This document shows positions 13,582-16,073 of a DNA stretch of 34,013 nt, piece after piece. The position numbers and the translations under genes are program-made. The notes under the pieces are model-generated. The model was not told the origin of the DNA. It did no database searches and saw only the letters and a program-made list of their open reading frames with translations. The stretch lies in the NCBI GenBank assembly GCA_037388465.1, contig JARRKE010000018.1, positions 1-34,013 on the forward strand, given 5' to 3'. Origin of the DNA: Gammaproteobacteria bacterium. Its GTDB lineage: Bacteria > Pseudomonadota > Gammaproteobacteria > SpSt-1174. Numbering within the stretch: position 1 is the stretch's first letter; the number at the start of each line of letters is the position of its first letter.

Positions 13582-14676
13582 CTATTTATCCGACCGGCTG
13601 CCCTCCGGCTTCTCTTCCGTATCGGATGCATCTTGTTCGGCCGCTTCTTCCTCGGCCTGTTCGGCTTCCTCGATGGCATCCAGCTCGGCGTCCATCTCGG
13701 CATCGGTCAACGGCCGGTAGGGTTCGTCATCCCCGGCGTCGGCCGCGCCTTCCTGATAGCGGCGCGTCAGACGCTCCGCCTCGGTCAATTCCTCTTCCGG
13801 GATGTCCGCAGCAGCGGCTGCGCCGCCGGCCGGTGCGGTCGGGGATGAAGGCGGCGGTTGATCGTCGGAGGGTCCGCCTTCGTCGCCGCCTTCATCCGCG
13901 TCTTCATCGGTTTCATCCGTCGGCTTCGGCACGACCATGCGCGAGAACACCAACCCCACCTCGAACAGCAGCCAGATAGGCAGCGCCAGCATGGTCTGTG
14001 ACACGATATCAGGAGGCGTCAGCAGCATGCCTATAACGAATGCGGCAACGATAACGTAGGGGCGTTTGCGCGCCAGGTCGTCGGGACTCACCACGCCGGC
14101 CATGACCAGCAGCACGGTGGCCACCGGCACCTCGAAGGCCGCCCCGAAGGCCATGAACATCTTCAGGACGAAATTCAGGTAGTGCCCCATGTCGGTCATC
14201 ACCTCGACACCCTGCGGAGCGATGCGGGTGAAAAAGCCGAACACCAGCGGGAAGACCACGAAATAGGCGAAGGCCATGCCCAGATAGAACAGCAGCACGC
14301 TGGACACCAGCAGCGGCACGGCGAGCCGCCGTTCGTGCCGGTACAGCCCCGGCGCTACGAAGCTCCAGACCTGATGCAGGATGTAGGGCAGCGAGATGAC
14401 GAAGGAAAGCACCACCACCAGTTTGAACGGCACCAGAAAGGTATCCGCCACGGCGGTGGCGATCAGATGCCCGCCCTGCGGCAGGTGCCGGATCAGCGGA
14501 CCGGACAGCCAGGTGAATATCTGGCCGTCGAAGGGGTATAGCGCCAGGATCACGACCAGCATGACCAGCACGCTGCGCATGAGGCGCGTGCGCAGCTCGA
14601 TCAGATGCCCGAGCAGCCCCTGCTCCGCATCCAGACCGTCGTTTTCTGTTTCGGGGGATTTACTGCTTTGTGTCAT
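13582..14676 (-). CDS. tatC: Twin-arginine translocase subunit TatC with long acidic tail
   Basis: TatC is the multi-spanning receptor of the Tat system, which exports folded proteins bearing twin-arginine signals. Residues 1-250 show the normal layout: the N-terminal HLIELRTRL motif, [11 protein letters not shown] in the first loop region, FAYFVVFP, and six membrane segments. The protein is 364 residues long, against about 250 to 260 in most bacteria. The extra 115 residues are very rich in Asp, Glu, Ala and Pro and end in a predicted-helical acidic stretch. The start overlaps the end of tatB by 17 bases, indicating translational coupling. The tail has no recognised function. Confidence 0.96.
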
Positions 14677-15100
14677 GCGTGCTGGCGCGCTTGTCTTCTG
14701 TCTCGGTCGCCGCGTCGGTGCCGGATGATGCCTCGTTCAGCTGCGGCTTGGCTGCCGTTGATGACGTCGAGTCAGTTGACTTGTCCGGGGCCGGTCGGTC
14801 CTCATCCATTGACCGTACGAGGTACTCGGTCTCCTGGACCTCGTCGTTGATCTTGCGCTGGGTGTCCTGCACCAGATCGCGCAACTGGTTGATCTCGTCT
14901 TCCTGCCGACGCAACAACCCTTTCAGCTCATCGGCATTGAGCTCACGCTCCACCTCGTCACGCACGCTGTTGATGTAGCTGCGCGCCTTGCCGACCCATA
15001 GACCGATGGTGCGGGCAAGCCCCGGCAAACGCTCGGGGCCTACCACGATCAAGGCCACGATCATGATCAGCAACAGCTCGGTAAAACCGATATCAAACAT
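14660..15100 (-). CDS. tatB: Twin-arginine translocase subunit TatB
   Basis: The protein has 146 residues and starts at ATG 15100 with the canonical [12 protein letters not shown]. One membrane helix (about 5-21) is followed by the conserved [12 protein letters not shown] hinge and a long amphipathic, coiled-coil-like region, then a Ser/Thr/Asp-rich tail. This hinge is the mark of TatB rather than TatA. TatB forms the substrate receptor with TatC. The frame is open upstream to 15178, but those residues are unlike the family. It lies in the order tatA, small ORF, tatB, tatC. Confidence 0.95.
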
Positions 15101-15261
15101 CGAATAATGCTCGATCTGGCATGCGGGAATTGTGCGGCTGCGTTGTGACCGGCGGGCCCGGAACCCGCTTAGGATCACATCGGCCGCCCGGTATCAGGCT
15201 GGACCGATGCGTCCCGGCGGTATCGATTGCGCGCGGCGTCCGCAAGGCGTGTTGCGATTAA

Positions 15262-15399
15262 TTAATGCGAACCCTCGTCGGAGCCGCTCAGGAACAGACC
15301 CAGGAAACCGAGGATCATCACGGCGCCGGCCGTGAGCAGAATCCCCAGCAGGACCAGAAAAGCCACCGCCCCGAAAGTCACGCCATCGAGAAAAATCAT
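15262..15399 (-). CDS. 45-residue single-span membrane protein in the tat operon
   Basis: A small ORF runs from ATG 15399 to TAA 15262 and begins MIFLDGVTFGAVAFLV. The ribosome site is very strong, AGGAGG 5 bases before the ATG. Residues about 9-37 are almost wholly hydrophobic (Leu, Gly, Ala, Val, Ile) and the end is SGSDEGSH, so a one-span membrane peptide is predicted. It starts 23 bases after the tatA stop and fills most of the 322-base tatA-tatB gap. I do not recognise its family. It is not TatA/E-like: the amphipathic helix and the FG/GP hinge are missing. Confidence 0.65.
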   Translation of the reverse strand: MIFLDGVTFGAVAFLVLLGILLTAGAVMILGFLGLFLSGSDEGSH

Positions 15400-15422
15400 T
15401 CGAACCTCCTAACCTGTTGGGT

Positions 15423-15743: not shown

Positions 15744-16073
15744 TTACCCGGCCTGGCCGCGACCGGCCTTTTCCTCGATGCCCGAGGTGCCGAAACGCCG
15801 TTCCAGCTCCGCCAGCACCTGACCTGGTTCCAGGCCCTGCTGGCTCAGCAGTACCAGGCTATGAAACCACAAATCGGCCACCTCGTAGACAATCTTGTCA
15901 GGGTCGCCGTCCTTTGCGGCCATCACCGTCTCGGTGGCCTCTTCGCCGATCTTCTTGAGAATGGCGTCCAGCCCCTTGGCGTACAGACCGGCCACATAGG
16001 AACTGCCGGGTTCCGCCTGCTTGCGCGCCTCCAGCACCGCGGCCAGACGCGCCAGGATCTCGGTTTCAGCCAT
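15744..16073 (-). CDS. hisE: Phosphoribosyl-ATP pyrophosphatase
   Basis: The protein has 109 residues with an all-helical MazG-like fold. It hydrolyses PR-ATP to PR-AMP and PPi, the second step of histidine synthesis. [31 protein letters not shown] carries the metal-binding Glu and Asp residues, and [15 protein letters not shown] is the second conserved block. It is the monofunctional HisE form. In many gammaproteobacteria hisI (the next enzyme, PR-AMP cyclohydrolase) sits between hisF and hisE; here only 89 bases separate hisF and hisE, so hisI must be elsewhere. Confidence 0.95.

Follow-up and report, generated by a model that had tools for sequence, protein, structure and literature searches.

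A candidate lineage-restricted membrane microprotein encoded between tatA and tatB in a gammaproteobacterial tat operon

INTRODUCTION

CydX and AcrZ are small proteins of bacterial membranes, each of which spans the membrane once. Proteins of this type, such as MgtR, have been surveyed (PMC10903887, PMC11188072), and the microproteins encoded in bacterial intergenic regions are mostly hydrophobic, with about 88% of their clusters at 50% identity being specific to one genus (PMC11188072). The short proteins of the Tat system, TatA, TatB and TatE, share a different architecture in which a single transmembrane helix is followed by an amphipathic helix (PMC5777986). Our literature search, which covered titles, abstracts and passages containing the search terms, returned no description of a gene between tatA and tatB.

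Here, we examine a 45-residue open reading frame, orf45, that occupies this position in a member of the Gammaproteobacteria. The window referred to below is the whole stretch of DNA that was analyzed, 34,013 nt of contig JARRKE010000018.1. A prior sequence-only reading had proposed that the frame is a real gene and might encode a Tat accessory subunit.

RESULTS

orf45 lies within a conserved row of codirectional genes. The frame runs from ATG to TAA and encodes the peptide MIFLDGVTFGAVAFLVLLGILLTAGAVMILGFLGLFLSGSDEGSH (Table 1). It lies on the minus strand, a detail that the sequence-only reading had not given. Its start is found 23 nt past the tatA stop, just where that reading had placed it, and its end is 161 nt short of the tatB start. 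Translational coupling between orf45 and tatB was considered and rejected because of this 161-nt separation. The minus-strand row in the window reads hisA-hisF-hisE-tatA-[orf45]-tatB-tatC, where the tat names are backed by profiles and the his names are taken from translations; orf45 and its neighbors point in the same direction, inside the conserved hisE-tatA-tatB-tatC row. The tatB frame itself stays open in the 5' direction (15101-15178) as far as a GTG at 15178, and the homologues of tatB begin at the MFD start, where the Shine-Dalgarno (SD) sequence is weak.

Table 1. Features of the tatA-tatB region, in window coordinates
Feature	Position	Strand	Remarks
orf45, 45-aa predicted single-span inner-membrane microprotein	15262..15399	(-)	
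SD sequence AGGAGG of orf45	15405..15410	(-)	5 nt 5' of the ATG
tatA, 81 aa	15423..15668	(-)	TIGR01411, 71 bits (cut-off 53.9); PF02416
tatB, 146 aa from the conserved MFD start (15100)	14660..15100	(-)	TIGR01410, 91.5 bits (cut-off 56.5); weak SD only
tatC, 364 aa	13582..14676	(-)	PF00902, TIGR00945
orf45-tatB spacer, 161 nt	15101..15261	(-)	No Rfam family
Strong imperfect RNA hairpin in the orf45-tatB spacer	15150..15235	(-)	-46.4 kcal/mol, z -3.55; stretch picked after inspection of a larger fold, full 161-nt spacer z only -0.87
hisE-like gene, 5' of tatA	15744..16073	(-)	Same strand as tatA; order shared with sister genomes

orf45 has a gene-like start signal and codon usage. The SD region of orf45 (TTAGGAGGT) matches TAAGGAGGT at 8 of 9 positions, the best score among the 17 gene starts checked, compared to 5 matches for tatA and 4 for tatB. 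An exact SD stretch of at least 7 nt accompanies only 2 of the 1,097 ATGs in the window. The strong AGGAGG site that had been noted is thus confirmed. In first-order Markov sequences modeled on such a gap, an ATG-initiated frame of at least 45 aa appeared in 37% of cases and such a frame preceded by an SD sequence in 1.9%; a frame with a hydrophobic span of at least 2.5 appeared in none of 20,000. A codon model was trained on the window's long genes. With it, the 44 codons of orf45, on which this statistic rests, scored 23.6 bits; this places orf45 at the 74th percentile among 44-codon pieces of real genes, and 0.14% of wrong-frame pieces reach such a score. When synonymous choice alone was scored, orf45 reached 9.0 bits versus a real-gene mean of 10.3 (36th percentile of real pieces), a value matched by 1.4% of wrong frames. 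The GC content by codon position (0.67/0.38/0.76) follows a pattern resembling that of the surrounding genes. orf45 therefore combines what is expected of the gene for a bacterial single-span membrane microprotein, namely, a short frame with its own SD sequence and a coding signal. Given this codon usage, together with the SD sequence, the hydrophobicity of the product and the position in the operon, orf45 is probably a real, well-translated gene, in line with the initial proposal.

The predicted product is a single hydrophobic helix unrelated to TatA or TatB by the comparisons made. The peptide is almost entirely hydrophobic, lacks lysine and arginine altogether, and has an acidic C-terminal tail, SGSDEGSH. 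Its best 19-residue Kyte-Doolittle mean is 2.79, confirming the clean hydrophobic span that had been described; among the small SD-led ATG frames of the window, it ranks second to TatA (2.85), and the next frame reaches 1.26. AlphaFold2, run on the single sequence, returned one helix from residue 2 to residue 42 with a mean pLDDT of 93.3, and both methods thus predict one transmembrane helix. We considered whether orf45 descends from TatA, TatB or TatE as a paralogue that has decayed or been shortened, given that it sits between tatA and tatB, carries a polar residue close to its N terminus and, like these proteins, is short, begins with a hydrophobic helix and is encoded in a tat operon. However, the profiles PF02416, TIGR01410 and TIGR01411 gave no match to orf45 at an E value of 1 or less, whereas the TatA and TatB of the window exceeded the cut-offs. 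Shuffled peptides equaled the orf45-TatA alignment score in 16% of cases and the orf45-TatB score in 62%, so that the pairwise similarity does not rise above that due to composition. The architecture also differs, as the uninterrupted helix spans nearly the full length of the peptide and has neither an FG/GP hinge, nor an amphipathic helix after it, nor any basic residue. Descent from this family is extremely unlikely and is already disfavored, and the earlier remark that orf45 has no TatA/TatE features is upheld. Searches against Pfam, NCBIfam, PHROGs and sequences from the PDB yielded matches at chance level only: DUF3917 (E value, 0.36), phrog_22548 (0.078) and HisF designs (0.2).

orf45 is absent from the relatives sampled. 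The family, and likewise the order, was sampled by only two other species, both of another genus. The gene order is shared by both, and their tatA-tatB gaps, 59 and 64 nt long, contain no frame; these gaps are too short for orf45, which indicates that the gene is lacking in these relatives and was not simply missed. Among 87 measured tatA-tatB gaps, mostly from Gammaproteobacteria and with a few loci counted twice, the median was 35 nt and the gap holding orf45 was the longest at 322 nt. No comparable hydrophobic frame was present in about 85 other gaps examined, the nearest being a weaker 39-aa frame at locus L073 (mean, 1.89). The suggestion that the gene may go unannotated in related genomes was therefore not borne out, and the frame is not conserved between tatA and tatB in relatives, as a conserved component of the operon would be.

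The wider searches agreed with this result. With tblastn, orf45 had no significant homologue in 369 class-level and 398 phylum-level genomes, to which the orders of two genomes with a close TatB added only 4 genomes. Weak matches outside its own genome fell nearly all within long open frames, and no tat motifs were found at the loci fetched from the class-search matches. A DNA search with the tatA-tatB gap recovered nothing besides itself. One match, a 32-aa hydrophobic frame (MRSIMVTIILGILLVSGAVTIFLGLYLFGIIG; L010, 1510-1608) immediately 5' of thiS-thiG in an AT-rich genome, was considered as a homologue, as it is alike over 34 residues; its E value of 0.04 per genome means that such a likeness is expected by chance among 369 genomes, and it was rejected. 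As far as sampled, orf45 is an orphan limited to its genus or species, the two being given together since the genus was sampled by this one species only. Its presence in no other sampled genome makes it look young and lineage restricted rather than a general component of the export machinery.

We also considered an origin in a mobile or horizontally acquired element, inserted within the tat operon, of which orf45 would be cargo or a remnant; this would account for an insertion specific to this lineage. No relative was found among GTDB contigs, viral contigs, phages or plasmids, the rest of the genome held no second match, and the composition and codon usage of orf45 fit the host; this origin is very unlikely and already disfavored.

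These distributions bear on the suggestion that orf45 is a lineage-specific Tat accessory subunit, which would bind TatA or TatBC and alter TatA assembly or substrate release. Its location just past tatA, in the same orientation and behind a strong SD sequence, the predicted membrane helix and the conserved surrounding gene row all speak for such a role. However, neither same-family genome has orf45, nor does any other tat operon that was inspected, from which it follows that Tat systems in general can work without it. Furthermore, its peptide has no TatA-family match, amphipathic helix or basic residues, and position is the sole link to Tat. Under the refuting condition that the sequence-only reading itself had set, a frame not conserved in relatives, the suggestion lost the main support that it could have gained, and the argument from position stands. 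We regard this role as possible but unlikely and as a special case of the broader explanation given below.

Hairpins recur in tatA-tatB spacers. The strong hairpin of the window lies 3' of orf45 and 5' of tatB, outside the frame. We folded 40 tatA-tatB spacers of at least 40 nt (about 37 distinct), and about a dozen others had a z of -2 or less, indicating that a hairpin at this site is a recurrent feature. Such a hairpin may give TatA an excess over TatB by stabilizing or terminating the tatA message that precedes it. The spacers that folded far better than their shuffles were those of L073, L109, L145, L058, L064, L095, L059, L139, L105, L008, L055 and L120. In L058, the gap is unusually long (271 nt; z, -4.0) and holds no hydrophobic frame. 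L073 has a 195-nt gap with a z of -5.6 and the 39-aa frame mentioned above (MILPILLALLLLLESSQSLRRVTMRLLRCSNQKQKISVI); in the relative L072, the gap measures 149 nt and shows neither such a frame nor such folding.

Such hairpins raise the question of whether orf45 is a gene at all or a fortuitous frame in a long spacer whose role is at the RNA level, with the hairpin setting the TatA:TatB ratio. The frame is not conserved, its gap is the longest of those measured, and spacer hairpins recur in tat operons, all of which would be consistent with such a role. However, the strong hairpin is not inside the frame, and gene-like codon choice independent of the residues encoded, an SD sequence and a hydrophobic helix are jointly very unlikely to arise by chance. 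We therefore consider a spacer without a gene to be unlikely.

DISCUSSION

Our findings suggest that orf45 is likely a genuinely translated, lineage-restricted orphan, a single-span inner-membrane microprotein encoded on the tatA side of the tat transcript. We infer that orf45 belongs to the tatA-side portion of this transcript and would be coexpressed with TatA, and its near-perfect SD sequence could lead to a high rate of translation. The product would insert into the membrane as a single hydrophobic helix that carries no charge and continues into a short acidic tail. Output could be high for tatA and orf45 and lower for tatB and tatC, with the hairpin in the orf45-tatB spacer separating the two segments. 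By analogy with other bacterial membrane microproteins, the orf45 helix would most likely bind a helix of a larger membrane protein and tune it. A Tat component is a possible, if improbable, candidate for this target. It is distinctly unlikely that a recently born orf45 has come to serve the TatABC translocase as a lineage-specific fourth subunit or regulator, made in step with TatA.

Within an export operon that ranks among the most conserved, orf45 represents a compact and clearly delimited candidate for a membrane microprotein of recent origin, and the locus makes gene birth and operon recruitment testable. The tatA-tatB spacer is a place where such genes can lodge, and the strong hairpins found in many of these spacers may set the TatA:TatB ratio. 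If orf45 does not touch Tat, it would be an ordinary orphan small protein. In our view, the gene is probably real and is worth annotating.

In summary, orf45 adds a new orphan to a known kind of protein and is of modest interest. Being hydrophobic and lineage restricted, it agrees with what has been published on microproteins from bacterial intergenic regions (PMC11188072). No sequence relation to any of the named microproteins was shown, and orf45 is known from sequence alone, unlike these proteins. With microproteins of the MgtR, CydX and AcrZ type, orf45 nevertheless shares a length under 60 aa, one hydrophobic helix, its own SD sequence, a location within or next to an operon that encodes membrane proteins, and a narrow taxonomic range.
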